A stretch of 64,000 nt of DNA from NCBI RefSeq assembly GCF_900100955.1, contig NZ_FNCC01000011.1, positions 62,001 to 126,000 on the forward strand. The letters run 5' to 3'. The notes under the pieces are model-generated. The model was not told the origin of the DNA. It worked only from the letters and a program-made list of their open reading frames with translations, and searched no databases. Position 1 is the stretch's first letter; every line of letters begins with the position of its first letter. Both the position numbers and the translations under genes were made by a program. This DNA comes from Lentzea fradiae (GTDB taxonomy: Bacteria > Actinomycetota > Actinomycetes > Mycobacteriales > Pseudonocardiaceae). Positions 31,606 through 41,492 of this stretch are shown here, piece after piece.

Positions 31606-31719
31606 TGCCTGACCTCCTAGAACATCGCTTACCGCTCATTCTCGCCCGAGCCGAGAACGAAGCGATGCCCCGGTCTCCACTGTGGAAACCGGGGCGCTAC
31701 TGCTTCCTCGCCGGGTGCC

Positions 31720-31887
31720 TCAGCCGGCGGCGGCCTTCAGCGCGTCGCCCAAGGCGCTGGCCTCGTCCGCCGACATCTCGACGACGAGGCGCCCACCACC
31801 CTCGAGCGGCACGCGCATGACGATGCCGCGTCCCTCCTTGGTGACCTCGAGGGGACCGTCGCCGGTCCGGGGCTTCATGGCCGCCAT
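31720..31887 (-). CDS. DUF3117 small protein (Rv1211-like)
   Basis: This 55-residue protein is nearly identical in pattern to M. tuberculosis Rv1211: MAAMKPRTGDGPLEVTKEGR, GIVMRVPLEGGGRLVVEMSA, DEASALGDALKAAAG. The ATG at 31887 has GGAGGG about ten bases upstream. It is conserved across actinobacteria with no settled function. Its position between the glg and tag anchors matches the M. tuberculosis order. Confidence 0.9.
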   Translation of the reverse strand: MAAMKPRTGDGPLEVTKEGRGIVMRVPLEGGGRLVVEMSADEASALGDALKAAAG

Positions 31888-32140
31888 CGCGTGCTCCCTC
31901 CGTCAACATCTTCCCCGTCCGGCCAGGCCGGATCTGCTCCATTCTCCCCTATCGCGACTCCGGGGCGAAACCGAACCGATCTTTTGGCGAGTCCGGGTGA
32001 CAGTTGTCGATCTTGACTTGTCGCTGTTCAGTACCCGTTTTCCAGGCAAGGCAACACTTTCGGCACAACCGGGTGGTGTGACGTTCACCGAACGGACCAA
32101 CCGCACCCGGCCACCGGCACGGCGTGCCAGACTGGGCAGG

Positions 32141-32938
32141 GTGCGAGCCCGTTCCGCGCTCTTCGACGTCTACGGCGGCCACCTGCGCGAACGCGGAGGC
32201 GCCGCCACCATCGCCGCGCTCGTCCGGCTGCTGGAGCCCCTCGGCTTCGCCGCGCCGGCCGTCCGCACGGCCGTGTCGCGCACCGTCCGGCAGGGCTGGC
32301 TGCAGCCCGTGCGGCTCCCTGACGGGCCCGGATACGCCATGACACCTCGCGGGGAACGACGCCTCGACGAGGCCGCTGCCCGCATCTACCGCACCCGGCC
32401 GTCCACCTGGGACGGTCGCTGGCACGTGGTCGTGCTGGAGGAGATGCCCGGCCGCGACTCGCGCGACCACCTGGCCTCCTCGCTGCAACTGCTCGGCTAC
32501 GGCGCGCTCGGTCCTGTGACGTGGATCGCGCCCCGGCCGTCGCCTGAGCTGGGTGACGTGCTGGCCGCGGAGGAAGTCCAGGCACGAACTTTTCACGGTT
32601 CACACGACGGACAGGACTCCGAGCTCGCGGAGAGGGCCTGGGACCTCGCTGAGCTGGGCCGCGACTACGCCGCGTTCGTCGCGCACTGGCACGCCGAGGT
32701 GTCCGGTGTGGACGCGACGGACGACGCGGCGGCGTTCGCAGGATCACAGCGGCTGCTGCACGCGTGGCGCAAGTTCCTGTTCCGCGATCCCGGTCTTCCT
32801 GCTGAACTGTTGCCACCGGACTGGCCGGGCCACGCGGCAGCCTCGTTCTTCGACGAACAGACGCTGCGGCTGGCACCGGGCACGACTCGCTTCGTCGACG
32901 AGTGCCTGCGGCCGGCCCGCAACGTTTCCACCGCTTGA
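32141..32938 (+). CDS. PaaX-family transcriptional repressor
   Basis: The protein has about 265 residues from the GTG at 32141; a GTG at 32078 would add 21. The N-terminal winged helix reads ARSALFDVYGGHLRERGGAA and VRTAVSRTVRQGWLQPVRLP. The PaaX body has WHVVVLEEMPGRDSRDHLAS and LGYGALGPVTWIAPRPSPEL, and the C-terminus LLHAWRKFLFRDPGLPAELL followed by PPDWPG is characteristic. PaaX represses phenylacetate catabolism and is released by phenylacetyl-CoA. It is followed 10 bp later by a paaG-like gene. Confidence 0.85.
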   Translation: MRARSALFDVYGGHLRERGGAATIAALVRLLEPLGFAAPAVRTAVSRTVRQGWLQPVRLPDGPGYAMTPRGERRLDEAAARIYRTRPSTWDGRWHVVVLEEMPGRDSRDHLASSLQLLGYGALGPVTWIAPRPSPELGDVLAAEEVQARTFHGSHDGQDSELAERAWDLAELGRDYAAFVAHWHAEVSGVDATDDAAAFAGSQRLLHAWRKFLFRDPGLPAELLPPDWPGHAAASFFDEQTLRLAPGTTRFVDECLRPARNVSTA

Positions 32939-33877: not shown

Positions 33878-34426
33878 TCAGGGGTGCGGGGCGGCCCGGA
33901 AGCAGGTCGAGATGTGGTCGTCCACCATGCCGGTGGCCTGCATGAGCGCGTAGCACGTGGTGGGGCCGAGGAACTTGAAGCCGCGGCGCTTGAGCTCCTT
34001 GGCCATCGCCTTCGACTCGTCGGTGATGGCGGGGACGTCCGCGCTCGTCTTGGGCCGCTTGTGCTTCTCCGGCGCGAACGACCACAGCAGGGCGTCGAGG
34101 TCAACGTCCTGCTCGACGAGGACGCGCGCGTTGTGGACGGCGGCGTCGATCTTGAGGCGGTTGCGGACGATGCCCGCGTCGGCCATCAGGCGTTCGACGT
34201 CGGCCGGTCCGAACTCGGCCACGAGCTTCGGGTCGAACCCGGCGAACGCCGCGCGGAAGGCGGGACGCTTGCGCAGGATCGTGATCCACGACAGGCCGGA
34301 CTGGAACGCCTCCAGCGACATCCGCTCGTACAGCTCGGGCGTGCCGTGCAGCTCCACGCCCCACTCGGTGTCGTGGTACTCGGCGTAGTCCGGCGTCGAG
34401 TCGCCCCACGGGCAGCGGCTGATCAC
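33878..34426 (-). CDS. tag: DNA-3-methyladenine glycosylase I
   Basis: This 182-residue base-excision enzyme opens with RCPWGDSTPDYAEYHDTEWG (zinc Cys and His region), then LYERMSLEAFQSGLSWITIL with the catalytic Glu, DAGIVRNRLKIDAAVHNARV, and GFKFLGPTTCYALMQATGMV followed by DDH. It removes 3-methyladenine from alkylated DNA. The GTG at 34426 overlaps the upstream stop as GTGA, so it is the last gene of a run with the SRPBCC and DivIVA-like genes, as for tagA/Rv1209 in M. tuberculosis. Confidence 0.93.
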   Translation of the reverse strand: MISRCPWGDSTPDYAEYHDTEWGVELHGTPELYERMSLEAFQSGLSWITILRKRPAFRAAFAGFDPKLVAEFGPADVERLMADAGIVRNRLKIDAAVHNARVLVEQDVDLDALLWSFAPEKHKRPKTSADVPAITDESKAMAKELKRRGFKFLGPTTCYALMQATGMVDDHISTCFRAAPHP

Positions 34427-34824
34427 CGGTACTCCTCGGCGAACCGGGCGAACCGGTGCAGCGACCGGCGCAGCATCAGCACGAACAACGGCTTCACGAC
34501 GGGGAAGAAGAACGGCACGTCGAGCCGTTCCGTCCACACGAAACGGCCGCCGCGCACGGCGAACACGCCGGTCCCTCGCACGACCCGGCCGAGGTGCAGC
34601 ACCTCGACGGCGTGCGGCGGGTCCCAGCGGGTGATGCGCATGCGGTCCGAGACGCCGAACGTGACGGCGTCGATCTCGCTGCCCACCGACCTGCCGTCAC
34701 CCTCCACCACGGACACGCGGGTGCCGAACACCCACTCCGACTGGCGTTCCCAGTCGGTCATCGCGCGGAAGACCGTGTCCGGTGGCGCGGCCACCTCGAC
34801 GCTCAGCTCAAGCTCGGTGCTCAC
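34423..34824 (-). CDS. SRPBCC (START/Bet v1-like) family protein
   Basis: This 133-residue protein contains LSVEVAAPPDTVFRAMTDWE, RITRWDPPHAVEVLHLGRVV and FVWTERLDVPFFFPVVKPLF, typical of polyketide-cyclase/dehydrase-like hydrophobic-cavity proteins. The ligand is unknown. The GTG at 34824 lies inside the end of the DivIVA-like gene (17-bp overlap), and its stop overlaps tag, so it is tightly coupled to both. Confidence 0.82.
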   Translation of the reverse strand: MSTELELSVEVAAPPDTVFRAMTDWERQSEWVFGTRVSVVEGDGRSVGSEIDAVTFGVSDRMRITRWDPPHAVEVLHLGRVVRGTGVFAVRGGRFVWTERLDVPFFFPVVKPLFVLMLRRSLHRFARFAEEYR

Positions 34825-35107
34825 TGCTCTCCAGCTCCTCGACGCGGGCCCGCAGCTCCCCGACCTCCGTCGCGAGCCGCTGCAGCACCCAGTCGACCTC
34901 GCTCATCTTGTAGCCGCGGAACGACTGCTGGAACTTCAGCTCGCGGACGTGCTCCTCGGTGAGGCCGTCCGCGGGCAGACGCGTCGGGGAGGCGCCCGGC
35001 GGCAGCGGTTCGAGCTCCTCGCCGCGCCCGAACACCAACGCCGCGAGCAGGAACACCACTGCCGCGACGGCCACCATCACGATCAGGTAGAGAAGGGCGT
35101 TGGTCAC
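34808..35107 (-). CDS. Small membrane-anchored DivIVA-domain protein (Rv1209-like)
   Basis: The protein has 99 residues. An N-terminal membrane helix (LLYLIVMVAVAAVVFLLAAL) is followed by FGRGEELEPLPPG and a short DivIVA-like domain (FQQSFRGYKMSEVDWVLQRL) with a terminal coiled coil. The GTG at 35107 overlaps the preceding stop as GTGA. It corresponds to Rv1209 in position and pattern. A role at the cell pole or septum is inferred from the domain. Confidence 0.82.
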   Translation of the reverse strand: MTNALLYLIVMVAVAAVVFLLAALVFGRGEELEPLPPGASPTRLPADGLTEEHVRELKFQQSFRGYKMSEVDWVLQRLATEVGELRARVEELESSEHRA

Positions 35108-35781
35108 ACGACGATCGTGGCACAGCTCAGGCACCGGCGAGCGAGCAGACCGAGACGAACGACCACGATCCAGCTGACCGCGCTCGCGATCGTCATCGGC
35201 GCCGACTGCAGCAGCCGCTGCGGGTCGAGGTGCGCGGTGGCCAGGACGATCGACAGGTTGCCCGCCAGCACCGCCCCCACGGCCACCATCCCGATCGACG
35301 CGGCCACCCTGGCCAGCAGCTTCGGGTCGTAGCGGCGGGCCACCAGCCGGCCTGCCACCAGCGCGGCGAGCGCGACGGCGGACGCGATGCCGTTGGTGAG
35401 GTCGTTGGCCTTGGCGACGAAGAGGTACCAGGACGGCGGCGGCGTGGCGAAGGCCGGCCACGGGCCGATGAACAGCATCCGCCCGTACTCCCACGCCATG
35501 TGCATCAGCGGCAGCACGATCGCGAGCCACACGAGCGTGCGCGTGCCGTACCCGACGGCCAGCTCGGCCTGGTACTCGTTCGCGATCACGCGGACCGGGC
35601 CGAACTCGTCGACCGCGCGCCGCTGCGCCTCCTGCTCGGTCAGGCCGCTGCCGAGGTGGGCCTCGGTCGCGTCGGCGAGGCTGTCGCGGGTCTCGGTGAG
35701 CAGGTCGCGGACCTGCCTGGGCGAGCCGTTGAGCCGGGACCCGAGGTCCGTCACGTACCTGTCGATCACGTCTGCGCCCAC
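35104..35781 (-). CDS. HAAS-type (permease prefix domain) membrane protein
   Basis: This 225-residue protein has an N-terminal cytosolic HAAS-like domain (IDRYVTDLGSRLNGSPRQVR, AHLGSGLTEQEAQRRAVDEF) followed by four to five membrane helices. Such proteins are normally encoded with a PadR regulator, as here. The GTG at 35781 has GGGAGGGGG upstream; a GTG at 35769 overlapping the PadR stop is the alternative. It probably works with the PadR protein in a small envelope-stress or signalling unit. Confidence 0.8.
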   Translation of the reverse strand: MGADVIDRYVTDLGSRLNGSPRQVRDLLTETRDSLADATEAHLGSGLTEQEAQRRAVDEFGPVRVIANEYQAELAVGYGTRTLVWLAIVLPLMHMAWEYGRMLFIGPWPAFATPPPSWYLFVAKANDLTNGIASAVALAALVAGRLVARRYDPKLLARVAASIGMVAVGAVLAGNLSIVLATAHLDPQRLLQSAPMTIASAVSWIVVVRLGLLARRCLSCATIVV

Positions 35782-36104
35782 GTTCCGCCCCCTCCCAGCA
35801 CCCCGCCGATCACCGTCGTGAACTCGCGCCACGCCGCGCGTTCGGCGTGCAGCGCCTTCCGTCCCGCCGAGGTGAGCCGGTAGGTGCGGCGCTTGCGTCC
35901 GCCGACCGTGCTCCAGTCGCTCGCCACGTGCCCCGCCCGTTCCAGCCGGCGCAGCGCCGGGTAGACGGTGCCCGTCGGCAGGTCGAGCGCACCGCCGCTG
36001 CCCTGCTGCAACGCCTCGATGATCGCGTAGCCGTGCAGCTGCCTGCCGTCGAGCGTGGCCAGCAACAACGCGTCGAGGTGGCCGCGTAGCGCGTCGGGCT
36101 TCAT
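35766..36104 (-). CDS. PadR-family transcriptional regulator
   Basis: This 112-residue winged-helix protein contains ALRGHLDALLLATLDGRQLH, GYAIIEALQQGSGGALDLPT, GTVYPALRRLERAGHVASDW and RRTYRLTSAGRKALHAERAA, the PadR pattern. It overlaps the HAAS-type membrane gene, so the two are a regulator/membrane pair. The ATG at 36104 faces cydA 140 bp away. Confidence 0.9.
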   Translation of the reverse strand: MKPDALRGHLDALLLATLDGRQLHGYAIIEALQQGSGGALDLPTGTVYPALRRLERAGHVASDWSTVGGRKRRTYRLTSAGRKALHAERAAWREFTTVIGGVLGGGGTWAQT

Positions 36105-36245
36105 GTCCCCGCACTCTACTGACCGGCCCGCCGGGGCCGGTCCCGGAAGATTCCCGTAGTGCCGGTCGGGGACGTCCCTGAGTTCTCCCCGGTATCGGCG
36201 GAGAAGCGTTCATAAGTAGCACAGCTACACATAGCTTCCCTACAC

Positions 36246-37406
36246 ATGAGCGCAGTAGACCTCGCCCGCCTCCAGTTCGCGACGACGACGTCGTTCCACT
36301 TCCTGTTCGTGCTGCTCACCCTCGGTCTGGTCACCCTGCTCGTGGTGATGCAGACGAGGTTCACCATCACCGGGGCGCGCGTGCACGAGCGGATGACGTT
36401 GTTCTGGGGCCGGATCTACGTGATCAACTACGCGCTCGGGATCGTCACCGGCATCGTGATGGAGTTCCAGTTCGGCCTGAACTGGTCGGGGCTCGCGACC
36501 TACGCCGGTGACGTGTTCGGGGCGCCGCTCGCGGTGGAGACGCTGGTCGCGTTCTTCCTGGAGTCCACGTTCCTGGGGCTGTGGATCTTCGGCTGGGGCA
36601 AGCTGAACCGCTGGCTTCACCTCTCCCTGCTCTACCTGACCGCGCTCACGGCGTTCGCGTCGGCGTTCTGGATCATGGCGGCCAACGGGTTCCTGCAGAA
36701 CCCGGTCGGCCACCGGGTGGACGGGAACGTGCTGCGGCTGACCGACTTCGGCGCGCTGCTGACGAACCCGGCTTTCGTCCACGCGCTGCCGCACGTGATC
36801 TCGGCCGCCCTGACCGTCGGCGGCGTGTTCCTGACCGGGGTGTCGGCGTACCACTTCATCAAGCGCACCCCCGAGGCCGACTTCTTCCGCCGCTCGCTGC
36901 GGATGGGCGTCGTGACAACGGCGCTGGCCACGCCGGTGCTGTTCACGTTCGGCATCACGCAGCTGAACGTCGTCAGCGAGCTCCAGCCGCACAAGAACGA
37001 GGCGGCGTCGTGGATCGGTCTCCCGCTCGGGTTCATGATCCTCATCGGGCTGGGGCTGACCGTCGTCAGCTGGCTCACGCTGCCGCTGCTCGCCAGGGAC
37101 GCCGTGATCCGGATGCGCTTCCCCTTGTACCTCATGGTGATCGGCATCCCGGTCCCGTTCGCCGCCGCGATCTTCGGCTGGCTGTACCGGGAGGTCGGCA
37201 GGCAGCCGTGGGTCGTCTACGGCCTGCTGCGCACCGAGGACGCGGTGTCGCATGTGGACGCCGGTCAGATCCTGTTGTCGCTCATCGTGTTCACGTCCCT
37301 GTTCGTGGTGCTGGCCGGTGTGGACTGGGTGTTGATCGCACGTGCGGTCCGCCGCGGTCCGGACGTGGCTCCCGCCCCTGTCTCGCCGTTGGTGGTGACG
37401 CTCTGA
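36246..37406 (+). CDS. cydA: Cytochrome bd oxidase subunit I, short form lacking most of the Q-loop
   Basis: The protein has 386 residues against about 450-520 for usual CydA. Retained are the haem-ligand His in TTSFHFLFVLLTLGL, ETLVAFFLESTFLGLWIFGW with both Glu, His in HALPHVISAAL, and GRQPWVVYGLLRTEDAVS. After SELQPHKNEAA, where a typical protein has an ~80-90-residue quinol loop, the next helix follows at once. The helix that normally carries Arg-x-Met (haem b558 ligand) reads LGFMILIGLGL, so neither residue is evident. No clear ribosome site precedes the ATG. The stop overlaps cydB. Confidence 0.85.
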   Translation: MSAVDLARLQFATTTSFHFLFVLLTLGLVTLLVVMQTRFTITGARVHERMTLFWGRIYVINYALGIVTGIVMEFQFGLNWSGLATYAGDVFGAPLAVETLVAFFLESTFLGLWIFGWGKLNRWLHLSLLYLTALTAFASAFWIMAANGFLQNPVGHRVDGNVLRLTDFGALLTNPAFVHALPHVISAALTVGGVFLTGVSAYHFIKRTPEADFFRRSLRMGVVTTALATPVLFTFGITQLNVVSELQPHKNEAASWIGLPLGFMILIGLGLTVVSWLTLPLLARDAVIRMRFPLYLMVIGIPVPFAAAIFGWLYREVGRQPWVVYGLLRTEDAVSHVDAGQILLSLIVFTSLFVVLAGVDWVLIARAVRRGPDVAPAPVSPLVVTL

Positions 37407-38029
37407 TGGAAACGCTCTGGCTGGTCGTGCTCGGCACGCTCGCCACCGGCTACTTCACGCTGGCCGGCTTCGACTACGGCACCGGGTTGCTGCTGCCGTT
37501 CCGCCGCCGTGACGAGGCCCTGTCCAGGATGACGCCGTTCTTCCTCGGCAACGAGGTGTGGCTGGTGGCCGCGGTCGGCGTGCTGCTCGCGGCGTTCCCG
37601 CGGCTCGAAGGAGAGCTGCTGTCCGGGTCGCACTCGGTGTTCACGCTGCTGCTCGCCGGGCTCGTGCTGTTCATGGCGGCCGTGCAGCTGCGGCTGTGGT
37701 GGTGGCTCGTGTTCACCGGCGCGCTGATGGTGTCCGTCGGCTGGGGCCTGTTCCTGGCGCACCTGCTCGACGCACCGCCGTTCGTGGCGCTGGTGATGCC
37801 GGTGCTGTTCGCGGTGCACGGCTGGGTGTTCCAGAACCGGCGGTGGGCGCTGTTCCCCGTGTCGGCGGCGTTGTGCGCGCTGCCGATCCCGCTCGCGTTC
37901 GGCACGATCGACGTCTCCGGCCTGATGGCGCACCCCGCCACGCTCACCCTGCTCGCGTGGGTCGCGATCCCGGTCATCCCGCTGGTGGTGGTGTTGCAGT
38001 GGTCGATCGTCGCCATCTCCTCGCGCTGA
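37406..38029 (+). CDS. cydB: Cytochrome bd oxidase subunit II, compact form
   Basis: The protein has 207 residues, against about 330-380 normally. The N-terminal marks TGYFTLAGFDYGTGLLLPF and MTPFFLGNEVWLVAAVGVLL are clear CydB, and the last helix (HPATLTLLAWVAIPVIPLVV) resembles the normal C-terminus. The middle is compressed to about seven membrane segments. The ATG at 37406 shares a base with the cydA stop (TGATG). The stop lies 31 bp inside cydD. The open frame and tight coupling suggest a working gene. Confidence 0.8.
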   Translation: METLWLVVLGTLATGYFTLAGFDYGTGLLLPFRRRDEALSRMTPFFLGNEVWLVAAVGVLLAAFPRLEGELLSGSHSVFTLLLAGLVLFMAAVQLRLWWWLVFTGALMVSVGWGLFLAHLLDAPPFVALVMPVLFAVHGWVFQNRRWALFPVSAALCALPIPLAFGTIDVSGLMAHPATLTLLAWVAIPVIPLVVVLQWSIVAISSR

Positions 38030-39348
38030 TCCCGATCCCGTTCCTGGTGCTGGCGCAGGCCGAGCTGCTCGCGTCAGTGCTGAGCGGCGGCACCGGTTTC
38101 CTCCTGCTGTGCCTGGTGGTCGGCGTGCGCGTGCTGGTCTGGTGGCTGCACCGCGCGTGGGCGCACCGGGCTGCCGAACGCACTCGTGCGCGGTTGCGGG
38201 AGGCGTTCCTGCGCTCGCCCGGCACCAAGGCCGGTGAAGTCGCCACCCTGGTCACGCGGGGCGTGCACGACGTGACCCCGTACGTCGTGGGGTACCTCCC
38301 GATGCGGGTCCTGGCCGTGGTGGTGCCGCTCGCGGTCATGGTCAGGCTGGCGTTCGCCGACCTGACGGCCGCGCTGACGATTCTGGTGACGCTGCCGTTG
38401 ATCCCGGTCTTCGGCGCGCTGGTGGGCGCGCACACCCGTGAGCGGACCGCCCGCCAGTGGGACGCGCTGGCGACGCTCGGCGGGCACTTCCTCGACGTGG
38501 TCAAGGGAATCGGGACGCTGCGGACGTTCGGCAGGGCCGGGGCGCAGTCGGCGACGGTCCGCGAGCTGGCCGCACGGCACCGGGCCGAGACGATGTCGGC
38601 GCTGCGGATCGCGTTCCTGTCGGCGTTCGTGCTGGAGCTCGTCGCGACGCTGTCGGTGGCCTTGGTCGCCGTGCCGGTAGGGCTGCGGCTGCTCGGCGGA
38701 GGGGTGCCGCTGCACACCGCCCTGCTCGTGCTCTTCCTGGCCCCGGAGGCGTTCCTGCCGCTGCGGGCCGCGGGAGCGCAGTTCCACGCGAGCGCACAGG
38801 GCCGTGAGGTGCTGGCCAAGGTGCCCGAGGTGGTCGAACGCGCCGGTGTGGAGCCGCCGGATCTCAGCGAGGCCGAGATCGTGCTCGACTCGGTGAGCGT
38901 CCGCAGCCTGGAGAACTTCTCGTTGCGCATCGCGCCGGGCGAACGGATCGCGCTCGTCGGCGCGAGCGGTGCGGGCAAGAGCACCGTGCTGGGGCTGCTG
39001 CTCGGGTTCGTGCGACCGGACAGCGGCCGGGTGCTCGTCGGCGGTGTCGACCTGGCCGAGATCGACCGGGAGAAGTGGCTGGCGGCGCTGTCGTGGGTGC
39101 CGCAACGGCCGACGCTCGTCCCGGCGAACCTCTCGTCCGGTGAACAGCAACGCGTCGCGCTGGCGAACGCGGTGGCACGGCGGCATGCCGGTCTCTTCCT
39201 GCTCGACGAACCGACCGCGCACCTCGACGCGGAGACCGAAGCCTTGGAGCTCAAGGCGATGCGTGACTTCACGAAGGGGCGGACCGCCGTGGTCGTGGCC
39301 CACCGGCCCGCGTTGCTGGACGAGGTCGACAGGGTGGTGACGGTGTGA
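37999..39348 (+). CDS. cydD: CydD-type ABC exporter half, short, with reduced nucleotide-binding domain
   Basis: The protein has 449 residues (usual ~540-580). The membrane domain keeps CydD marks LPLIPVFGALVGAHTRERTA, WDALATLGGHFLDVVKGIGT and APEAFLPLRAAGAQFHASAQ. The ATPase has Walker A GASGAGKSTVLGLLLG, Q-loop LSWVPQRPTLVPANL, signature LSSGEQQRVALANAVAR, Walker B LFLLDEPTAHLDAETE and H-loop VVAHRP. The signature follows the Q-loop within about ten residues, so the ~45-residue helical subdomain is missing. The GTG at 37999 overlaps cydB by 31 bp. CydDC exports thiols for cytochrome bd assembly. Confidence 0.8.
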   Translation: MVDRRHLLALIPIPFLVLAQAELLASVLSGGTGFLLLCLVVGVRVLVWWLHRAWAHRAAERTRARLREAFLRSPGTKAGEVATLVTRGVHDVTPYVVGYLPMRVLAVVVPLAVMVRLAFADLTAALTILVTLPLIPVFGALVGAHTRERTARQWDALATLGGHFLDVVKGIGTLRTFGRAGAQSATVRELAARHRAETMSALRIAFLSAFVLELVATLSVALVAVPVGLRLLGGGVPLHTALLVLFLAPEAFLPLRAAGAQFHASAQGREVLAKVPEVVERAGVEPPDLSEAEIVLDSVSVRSLENFSLRIAPGERIALVGASGAGKSTVLGLLLGFVRPDSGRVLVGGVDLAEIDREKWLAALSWVPQRPTLVPANLSSGEQQRVALANAVARRHAGLFLLDEPTAHLDAETEALELKAMRDFTKGRTAVVVAHRPALLDEVDRVVTV

Positions 39349-40646
39349 GACTCGCGATCCTCGTGGGCGTGCTCGCCGAACTGGCGGGCGTCGGCCTCAC
39401 CGCCACGGCGACCTGGCTCGTCATGCGCGCCGCCGAGCACCCGCCGATGCACGCGCTGACCGTGGCGATTGTCGCGGTCCGCACGCTCGCCCTCGCCAAG
39501 GGCGCCCTGCGCTACCTCGAACGCCTGACGAGCCACCGGGCCGTGCTGGGCGAGGCCGTCGAGCTACGCGGACGCGTCTACGACGACCTCGTGCACCGCC
39601 GACACATCCCGTCCGGCACGGCGCTGACCCGCATCGTCACGAACGTCGACCAGCACCTGGACTCGCGGCTGCGCACCACGTTGCCGTGGACCACGGCCGC
39701 TGTCGTGGGCGCGGTCGTCGCGGCAGCCTCGGGCTTCTCTCCGCCACTCGTCATCGGTCTGCTGATCACCCTGGCCCTGCTCCCCTGGCTCGCGCTCCGC
39801 GACCCGCGGGACCTCACCCCGTTGCGCGCGAAGCTGACCGAACAAACCACCGAACTGGTGCACAGCAAAGAAGAACTCATCGCGTACGGCCTCTTCGACG
39901 AGAAGCTCTCCGCCGCTACGGCGACCGCGAAAGCGTTGTCCCGCAAGGAACGCACGCGCGACCTGACCCCGCTGGCGATCGCCGTCCAGTTCGGCGTGGC
40001 ACTGCTGATGCTCGCGCAGCACGAGCCCGCGTGGCTGGTCATGGCCGCGATCGCGACGTTCGAGATCACCGTCCCGCTGGCCGCACTGACGAAGCCCGCA
40101 CCGGAACCCACCGACGAACCGGAGCCACCGGCCATCCACGAAATCCCGCTTCTGCAAGGGAAGACGGCGATCGTAGGACCGAGCGGAGCGGGCAAGACGA
40201 CGTTGCTCAACGCCATCGCGCACCGGCTGGAACCCAGCAAGGGCGCACTGGCCGACGCGCACGTCTTCCACACCACCGTCCGCACGAACGTGCTGCTCGC
40301 CAAGCCGGGTGCCACCCAGGAGGAGCTGGACCGCGCCGCCGCGATCACCGAGCTGGACCTCGACTGGGACCAGGTCGTCGGCGAACGCGGCGAGGAGATC
40401 TCCGGCGGCCAGCGGCAACGCCTGGTCCTCACCAGGTCGGTGCTCGCGAACCCGGACGTCCTGCTGCTCGACGAACCCACCGAAGGACTCGACCCCGAGC
40501 AGGCCGACCGGGTGCTGGGCAAGGTGCTCGACCACAGCCGCGGCACGGCGCTGGTCGTGACCCACCGGACCGAGCAGCTAGCGCTCTTCGACCACGTGCG
40601 CCATCGGCGGCCGGTCGGCCACCAGGACGTCGGTCGAGTCGGGTAG
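39345..40646 (+). CDS. cydC: CydC-type ABC exporter half, short, with reduced nucleotide-binding domain
   Basis: The protein has 433 residues (usual ~550). The membrane domain opens LVGVLAELAGVGLTATATWL with RYLERLTSHRAVLGEAVELR. The ATPase has Walker A AIVGPSGAGKTTLLNAIAHR, then ADAHVFHTTVRTNVLLAKPG, signature ISGGQRQRLVLTRSVLANPD, Walker B VLLLDEPTEGLDPEQ and H-loop VVTHRTEQ. About 25 residues, including the Q-loop Gln, are absent between Walker A and ADAHVF. The GTG overlaps the cydD stop as GTGA. Its last 69 bp overlap gpgS antisense, giving an unusual tail (HRRPVGHQDVGRVG). Confidence 0.78.
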   Translation: MRLAILVGVLAELAGVGLTATATWLVMRAAEHPPMHALTVAIVAVRTLALAKGALRYLERLTSHRAVLGEAVELRGRVYDDLVHRRHIPSGTALTRIVTNVDQHLDSRLRTTLPWTTAAVVGAVVAAASGFSPPLVIGLLITLALLPWLALRDPRDLTPLRAKLTEQTTELVHSKEELIAYGLFDEKLSAATATAKALSRKERTRDLTPLAIAVQFGVALLMLAQHEPAWLVMAAIATFEITVPLAALTKPAPEPTDEPEPPAIHEIPLLQGKTAIVGPSGAGKTTLLNAIAHRLEPSKGALADAHVFHTTVRTNVLLAKPGATQEELDRAAAITELDLDWDQVVGERGEEISGGQRQRLVLTRSVLANPDVLLLDEPTEGLDPEQADRVLGKVLDHSRGTALVVTHRTEQLALFDHVRHRRPVGHQDVGRVG

Positions 40647-41492
40647 CCACTCGCCGCCGACCTGCACGAACTGGGTGAGCGGGCCCGCCTGCGACTCGAC
40701 CCCGCAGCGGGCCAGCGCCGTTCCCATGATCTGCGAGGACATCACGCCCAGCTGCAACAGCGACCGGTTGCGGTGCTTGCGCACCCCGAGGTTCACCTGC
40801 GCCAGCGCCGACAGCCCGTGCAGCCGGTGCACGTCCAGCAGCAGCCCGATCTCCACGCCGTACCCGGCCGCGAACGGGACGGACTCCAAAAAGGACCGTG
40901 TCGCCGCGTACTCGCCGCCGAGCGGTTGCACCACACCGGAGAGCTCGGGCCGCAGCGTGTTCAGCAACGGCCGCGCCACCAGCTCGGTGACCCGTCCGCC
41001 GCCGCTGCTCTCCAGCCGCAATGGCCGCCGGTAGAAGCCCTTCACCAGGTGCACGTCCCGGTCGAGCAGCAACGGCCCGAGCAACGCCGTCACGAACGCC
41101 GTCTCCGGGTCCACCAGGTCGGAGTCGAGGAAGACGACCAGGTCACCGGTGGTCGCCGCGAGCGAGCGCCACAGCACCTCGCCCTTGCCGGGCACGGGTT
41201 CCAGCCACGGCACGACGTCCTCGCGCAGCACCACGCGTGCCCCGGCGGCGGAGGCGACGGCCACCGTCCGGTCGGTCGACCCGGAGTCCATCACCACCAG
41301 CTCGTCGACGAGCGTCCCGAGCAGCGGCCGGACCACGGAGACGACGTCGCCGACGGTCTCCTCCTCGTTCAGCGCGGGCAGCACCACGGACACCGTGCGG
41401 CCGCGTTTGAGCGCCACGAGCTCCTCGGGCGTCCAGGACGGCTGCTGCCAGGTGTGCGAGGCGAACCAGGCTTCGACGGCGGGCAGCATCAC
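40578..41492 (-). CDS. gpgS: Glucosyl-3-phosphoglycerate synthase GpgS
   Basis: This 304-residue GT81 glycosyltransferase transfers glucose to 3-phosphoglycerate, the first step of methylglucose lipopolysaccharide synthesis. Motifs are VSVVLPALNEEETVGDVVSV, DELVVMDSGSTDRT, PGKGEVLWRSLAATTGDLVV, FLDSDLVDPE, YRRPLRLESSGGGRVTELVA, and GYGVEIGLLLDVHRLHGL. The C-terminus VLVADRPPM matches Rv1208. GTG at 41492 or ATG at 41489; the former overlaps the upstream stop. Its 3' end overlaps cydC antisense. Confidence 0.93.
   Translation of the reverse strand: MMLPAVEAWFASHTWQQPSWTPEELVALKRGRTVSVVLPALNEEETVGDVVSVVRPLLGTLVDELVVMDSGSTDRTVAVASAAGARVVLREDVVPWLEPVPGKGEVLWRSLAATTGDLVVFLDSDLVDPETAFVTALLGPLLLDRDVHLVKGFYRRPLRLESSGGGRVTELVARPLLNTLRPELSGVVQPLGGEYAATRSFLESVPFAAGYGVEIGLLLDVHRLHGLSALAQVNLGVRKHRNRSLLQLGVMSSQIMGTALARCGVESQAGPLTQFVQVGGEWLPDSTDVLVADRPPMAHVVEER

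Follow-up and report, generated by a model that had tools for sequence, protein, structure and literature searches.

We report that a compact cydABDC operon of Lentzea fradiae, in a 64-kb window (the whole stretch of DNA that was analysed), encodes a cytochrome bd subunit CydA that has lost the quinol loop (Q-loop) and appears to have kept its haem ligands. Its four products are 386, 207, 449 and 433 amino acids long, with CydB, CydD and CydC also shorter than their canonical counterparts, and a PadR regulator is encoded alongside. Because the haem core is conserved, while residues of two quinone sites and of the CydB proton path are lost, we consider that the operon probably encodes a functional, inducible bd-type reductase in which electrons reach haem b558 without a lidded quinol site.

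The open reading frame of cydA is intact and its 386-residue product is a CydA by its PF01654 match, as had been proposed from the sequence alone (hereafter the sequence-only reading). Between K252 and E. coli position 385 it has 5 residues, compared with 92 in the canonical CydA of the same genome and 132 in E. coli. In a confident structure model with about nine membrane helices, just residues 247-257 (11 amino acids) join helices 211-246 and 258-281, so that alignment and model both support the absence of the Q-loop claimed by that reading. Six other same-genus genomes that were sampled encode a CydA of 384-386 amino acids with an identical gap, which excludes an assembly artefact. The CydA fold is supported by structure match as well as by Pfam. 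Matches in the structure search to membrane subunits of alternative complex III and of polysulfide reductase reflect, in our reading, no more than a common helical architecture.

The sequence-only reading had also found neither the Arg391 of E. coli nor an evident haem b558 Met. The first of these observations holds, with Gly262 in the place of Arg391, and the second was not borne out: judged by alignment, the missing Q-loop is genuine and the missing Met is not. In E. coli, haem b558 is ligated by His186 and Met393 (PMC6853902; like the other papers cited here, in excerpt). Met264 of the compact CydA is 54 residues ahead of the GRQPW motif, the same spacing as E. coli Met393, so that no gap is needed to pair the two. 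This and the following residue counts refer to 145 non-identical short and 21 canonical CydAs (175 rows, 9 identical ones removed; n = 141 for CydB), a non-random set selected for its resemblance to the window protein and alignment A4. The 54-residue spacing is found in 19/21 canonical and 50/145 short CydAs, the remaining short ones having 50-60, and in this enlarged alignment the Met393 position holds Met in all 145 short and all 21 canonical sequences. When 74 short sequences were aligned in five MAFFT modes, the Met264 column was Met in 74/74 in four modes and in 58/74 in the fastest. The remaining core is equally recognizable: H18, E73, E98, E106, H183, M264, W312, E316 and R319 correspond to E. 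coli H19, E74, E99, E107, H186, M393, W441, E445 and R448; the H19, E74, E99, E107, H186, E445 and R448 positions are invariant in 145/145 short CydAs, as are all six residues diagnostic of CydA in the cytochrome bd superfamily (His19, Glu99, Glu107, His186, Met393 and Glu445), and GRQPW is intact in the compact Lentzea CydA and in 136/145 short CydAs. Two points tell against this assignment: a HMMER pairwise alignment opens a two-residue gap and pairs Leu266 with Met393, and Met264 is absent from the list of positions conserved at 90% or more in the 49-row alignment behind the structure model. The structure models contain no haem, which weighs against our overall explanation. From spacing and conservation we conclude that the haem b558 Met is retained, with Met264 as the predicted ligand. 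With the Met ligand present there is no sign of an enzyme without haem b558, and loss of this haem was rejected on the same grounds.

The residues around the quinone are a different matter. Arg is found at the Arg391 position in 0/145 short and 21/21 canonical CydAs; Glu at the E257 position in 12/145 versus 21/21, the position being gapped or changed in 133/145 and lost in the compact Lentzea CydA; and Asp at the D239 position in 2/145 versus 19/21. An alternative menaquinone site described in M. tuberculosis CydA includes Trp9 (PMC8413341), and a Trp of this type is present in 2/145 short versus 20/21 canonical CydAs, with the adjoining Arg kept in 145/145. K252 weighs on the other side: it is retained in 131/145 short CydAs, in Lentzea as K250, and could reflect residual quinol function, although contact with a haem propionate has also been considered for a related lysine (PMC9846854). 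A narrower version of our explanation would be a lidless enzyme that oxidises menaquinol in an open pocket next to haem b558, perhaps slowly and in the role of a stress or overflow oxidase; the kept K252 and haem b558 ligands speak for it. In these bacteria the quinone is expected to be menaquinone. For bd enzymes with a short Q-loop, the quinol mechanism is itself described as unsettled (PMC13189123). We nevertheless find this version doubtful in view of the gapped or changed E257, the changes at D239 (143/145), the loss of R391 (145/145) and of the Trp9-type Trp (143/145), and a remnant loop that was trimmed repeatedly.

The proton path in CydB is likewise altered. CydB D58, K109 and D105 of E. 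coli, together with CydA K57, line a water chain toward the haem d propionate (PMC6853902). Both D58 and W57 are found in 0/141 short-type versus 21/21 canonical CydBs (Lentzea has L47 for D58), the K109 position is Arg in 121/141, D/E105 is mostly Trp or Gln, and CydA K57 is kept in 5/145 short sequences. The E. coli-type path is not found here, and proton uptake from the CydB side is perhaps absent. According to an alternative proposal, CydA K53 and E107 deliver protons (PMC13189123); E107 is kept in 145/145 and the K53 position is Arg in 143/145 (Leu in the compact Lentzea CydA), so this route may survive. Two further positions are class-typical: Arg315, next to the haem ligand Glu316 (37188-37193), is found in 145/145 short CydAs and is Thr in 19/21 canonical ones, and CydB E68 is Glu in 65/72 short and Tyr in 21/21 canonical sequences. 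They may possibly form a replacement proton or ion-pair route.

Two families of the bd superfamily, OR-N and OR-C, were reportedly described by Murali et al. in 2021; OR-N is not known to include a CydB, and OR-C enzymes have a cytochrome c fused or linked. Both resemble the compact form in that they have no quinol-binding site and that another electron donor has been proposed, in the excerpts available. Cytochrome c is the presumed donor of OR-N enzymes (PMC10839748), whose examples there come from nitrite oxidisers and from uncultured lineages related to them. A CydA-CydA' complex is hypothesised for OR-N, whereas the compact form is encoded with a PF02322 CydB, which lies in the same locus for 141/145 short CydAs. 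Judged by its genes, it is not OR-N as described, since it is encoded with CydB, and a CydAA'-type pairing of both CydAs was thought unlikely on the same count. As to OR-C, CxxCH occurs in 0/154 short CydAs scanned, with linked genes examined in part. By similarity the compact CydA is closest to E. coli/mycobacterial (qOR1)-type CydA, with 35-41% identity to eight qOR1-type chains and 24-26% to 9r2g and Geobacillus 5doq in a structure search. It differs from canonical qOR1 (E. coli bd-I/bd-II) in lacking the Q-loop, R391, E257 and Trp9, and its CydB in having D58, W57, D/E105 and K109 replaced; M. tuberculosis and C. glutamicum CydAB were counted as short-Q-loop qOR1. The structure 9r2g, titled qOR-2 type, is presumably AppCB, and its chain A shows 24% identity over 371 aligned residues. 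AppCB of M. smegmatis is, like the compact form, a second bd oxidase in an actinobacterium, but AppC is described as keeping K252/E257, unlike the compact CydA in E257 (PMC9498996). Since the quinol site (Q-loop with K252/E257) is absent, K252 being the one part retained, the compact form is, on its sequence, not a qOR by the published definition as excerpted (PMC13189123), and it does not simply fit the published families that lack a quinol site either.

Whether it has a different electron donor or is a novel compact form, as the sequence-only reading put it, remains a live question. In another narrower version of our explanation, a membrane or periplasmic cytochrome or other redox protein would dock on an exposed haem b558. 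The loss of residues from both documented quinone sites and the cytochrome c use suggested for OR-N (PMC10839748) fit such a donor; the lack of CxxCH in the short CydAs does not, nor does the fact that no cytochrome c or ferredoxin gene was noticed among the neighbours examined (neighbourhoods annotated in part). Nor did the compact operon show a gene for an electron donor, which also counts against electron entry of the kind we propose. We advance a non-quinol donor only tentatively.

The short CydAs have a shared history. In a 95-row IQ-TREE with loop columns excluded, a branch supported at 100/99 separates 74 of them from the rest (FastTree 0.825); the taxa are actinobacterial CydAs and E. 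coli only. Presence or absence of a remnant (>10 amino acids) changed seven times among the 74. Because the short CydAs form one clade, the tree indicates that a working Q-loop was lost a single time, provided that the E. coli rooting is correct, with the remnant trimmed repeatedly. End-to-end matches (at least 370/386 residues) were found in 22/150 genomes of the family sample, including 7/7 of the same genus (own genome counted), and in 40/394 of the class sample; both counts are lower bounds, since a longer remnant splits the match of a relative into two pieces. In a phylum sample at E <= 1e-70, 4/246 genomes matched. Besides our own these were a genome from the same order, another from the same class, and a fourth in which residues 1-255 are matched within a 473-residue frame. 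Among the best 80 of 585 stretches, carriers include Planomonospora, Streptosporangium, Microtetraspora, Microbispora, Nonomuraea, Micromonospora, Amycolatopsis, Kibdelosporangium, Allokutzneria, Saccharopolyspora, Jiangella, Streptomyces, Actinomadura and Nocardiopsis, while named homologues above 80% identity are mostly Lentzea, with one Nocardia sp. and one Pseudonocardiales by name. In a literature search that left subscription papers mostly outside, no Q-loop-less actinobacterial CydA was described among the matches listed; an earlier description of this clade cannot be excluded.

The compact form coexists with a canonical one. A full-length CydA, called by the span of the Pfam match rather than by reading the Q-loop, is also present in 49/49 carriers checked. 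Some genomes carry two short-type copies beside the full-length one (L103/L104 in G349, L109/L110 in G384). All four compact genes are short of canonical length, and CydB and CydC score under their NCBIfam cut-offs, which weighs against a working enzyme and would suit a decaying paralogue or a sequencing or assembly artefact. Such an origin is already disfavoured and appears very improbable to us: frames are intact and of near-equal length in 7/7 same-genus genomes, 145 non-identical homologues exist, and median ratios of non-synonymous to synonymous substitution (dN/dS) of 0.18-0.28 indicate purifying selection and argue against decay. Assembly error and pseudogene were both rejected on the frames and these ratios.

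We then considered regulation in 126 non-identical short operons with longer flanks, with a regulator zone that reached 3 kb upstream and 8 kb downstream. A relative of the PadR regulator lies near 65/126 (upstream and divergent in 50, some 6.5-7 kb downstream in 15), a NarL-type response-regulator relative near 34/126 (31 upstream, 3 weak downstream matches), and 27 have neither. A TAG-N5-CTA box within 150 bp upstream of cydA is found in 64/65 PadR-linked, 0/34 NarL-linked and 2/27 remaining operons, where the background is 0.002 per 150 bp. As it was these promoters that first revealed the motif, the count is not independent, and the 0/34 serves as control. In the sole PadR-linked operon that lacks the box (L063), PadR is 52% identical and lies at a distance of 6.8 kb. 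Both exceptions that do bear a box come from Micromonospora, and in each the stretch analysed stops before the padR position of its relatives. The two boxes at the Lentzea promoter are the only ones in the window, but 8/100 shuffles of it hold two or more, so the case for them rests on the comparison across species, from which we infer that they are PadR operators of the compact operon. Since just 3 nt separate the end of box 2 from the cydA ATG and no obvious ribosome-binding site is seen between them (36217-36248), the Lentzea transcript may be leaderless; in several Streptosporangiaceae homologues the boxes lie further upstream and a GGAG-type site is present. In the NarL-type part of the clade (L055, L056, L058-L060, L096-L099, L108), the regulator lies directly upstream of cydA, PadR is absent, and a histidine kinase is present where read. 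The best match to the Rex consensus TTGTGAA-N4-TTCACAA has 6 mismatches at the compact promoter and likewise at the canonical one.

A linked PadR or NarL-type regulator in 99/126 operons, the second copy in the 49 carriers and the replaced proton-path residues of CydB would also suit a non-respiratory protein, either a haem-based sensor of O2, nitric oxide (NO) or redox state, or a peroxide or NO scavenger that needs no fast electrons. Given the invariant E74, E99, E107, E445 and R448 and the CydB encoded in the same locus for 141/145, we consider this improbable.

Taken together, our findings suggest an additional, inducible bd-type O2 reductase that retains all three haem sites and is encoded with a CydDC-like transporter of its own. 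Having abandoned the lidded quinol site, it would take up electrons at low-spin haem b558 (His183/Met264) on a bare periplasmic face and pass them to the high-spin pair (H18, E98, E106, E316), where O2, or H2O2 or NO, would be reduced. The CydB-side proton path would be closed, although the CydA Glu106 route may remain, and the adjacent PadR protein would control transcription at the TAG-N5-CTA boxes. It is conceivable, though we lean slightly against it, that the clade is an actinomycete-wide subfamily with a single origin in a quinol oxidase, which has since lost both known quinol sites together with the CydB proton path. Beside canonical bd, it would then draw on a non-quinol donor, or act as a non-electrogenic scavenger, controlled by PadR or by a two-component system.

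Features of the compact cyd locus (positions in the window)
Feature	Position	Strand	Remarks
cydA, compact, 386 aa	36246..37406	+	first gene of cydABDC operon; PF01654, 373.8 bits
Residual TM6-TM7 (transmembrane helices 6 and 7) loop, CydA residues 247-257, 11 aa	36984..37016	+	replaces Q-loop
Codons G262-F263-M264, aligned to E. coli R391-I392-M393	37029..37037	+	Arg lost, predicted haem b558 Met kept
cydB, compact, 207 aa, PF02322	37406..38029	+	one-base overlap with cydA
cydD, 449 aa, GTG start inferred	37999..39348	+	TIGR02857, 439.6 bits (cut-off 435)
cydC, 433 aa	39345..40646	+
PadR-family regulator, divergent from cydA	35766..36104	-	PF03551, 74.7 bits
HAAS-domain protein after padR, stretch as scanned, start approximate	35107..35802	-	PF22564, 28.0 bits (cut-off 27)
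TAG-N5-CTA box 1, putative PadR operator	36217..36227	+
TAG-N5-CTA box 2, putative PadR operator	36232..36242	+	ends 3 nt 5' of cydA ATG

CydD and CydC both keep Walker A, Walker B and signature; about 40-47 residues are gone between WVPQRP and LSSGE in CydD, and the ATPase domain and C terminus are shortened in CydC. The CydB model has about seven membrane helices, and the helix 6-7 region is absent in Lentzea CydB. A convergent glycosyltransferase-2 gene (40578-41492, minus) overlaps the cydC 3' end by 69 nt (40578-40646), where the usual C-terminal tail of CydC is missing. Other neighbours look ordinary: one is a DNA-3-methyladenine glycosylase, another a regulator of PaaX type (33878-34537 minus; 31682-32938 plus). 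Another contig of the same genome encodes one further CydA, canonical and 484 amino acids long as trimmed, accompanied by cydB and a long cydDC-like frame, and the genome has two full COX1 matches and one split into two pieces.

The compact form adjoins the best-studied branch of the bd enzymes, and how bd enzymes without a quinol site obtain electrons is an open question. Its carriers belong to culturable genera (Streptomyces, Micromonospora, Nonomuraea, Lentzea and others among the best 80 of 585 stretches). Intermediates occur in a graded series, and the full-length paralogue that shares the cell offers an internal control. Work on them would separate the needs for the Q-loop, Arg391 and CydB Asp58 from those of the haem core.
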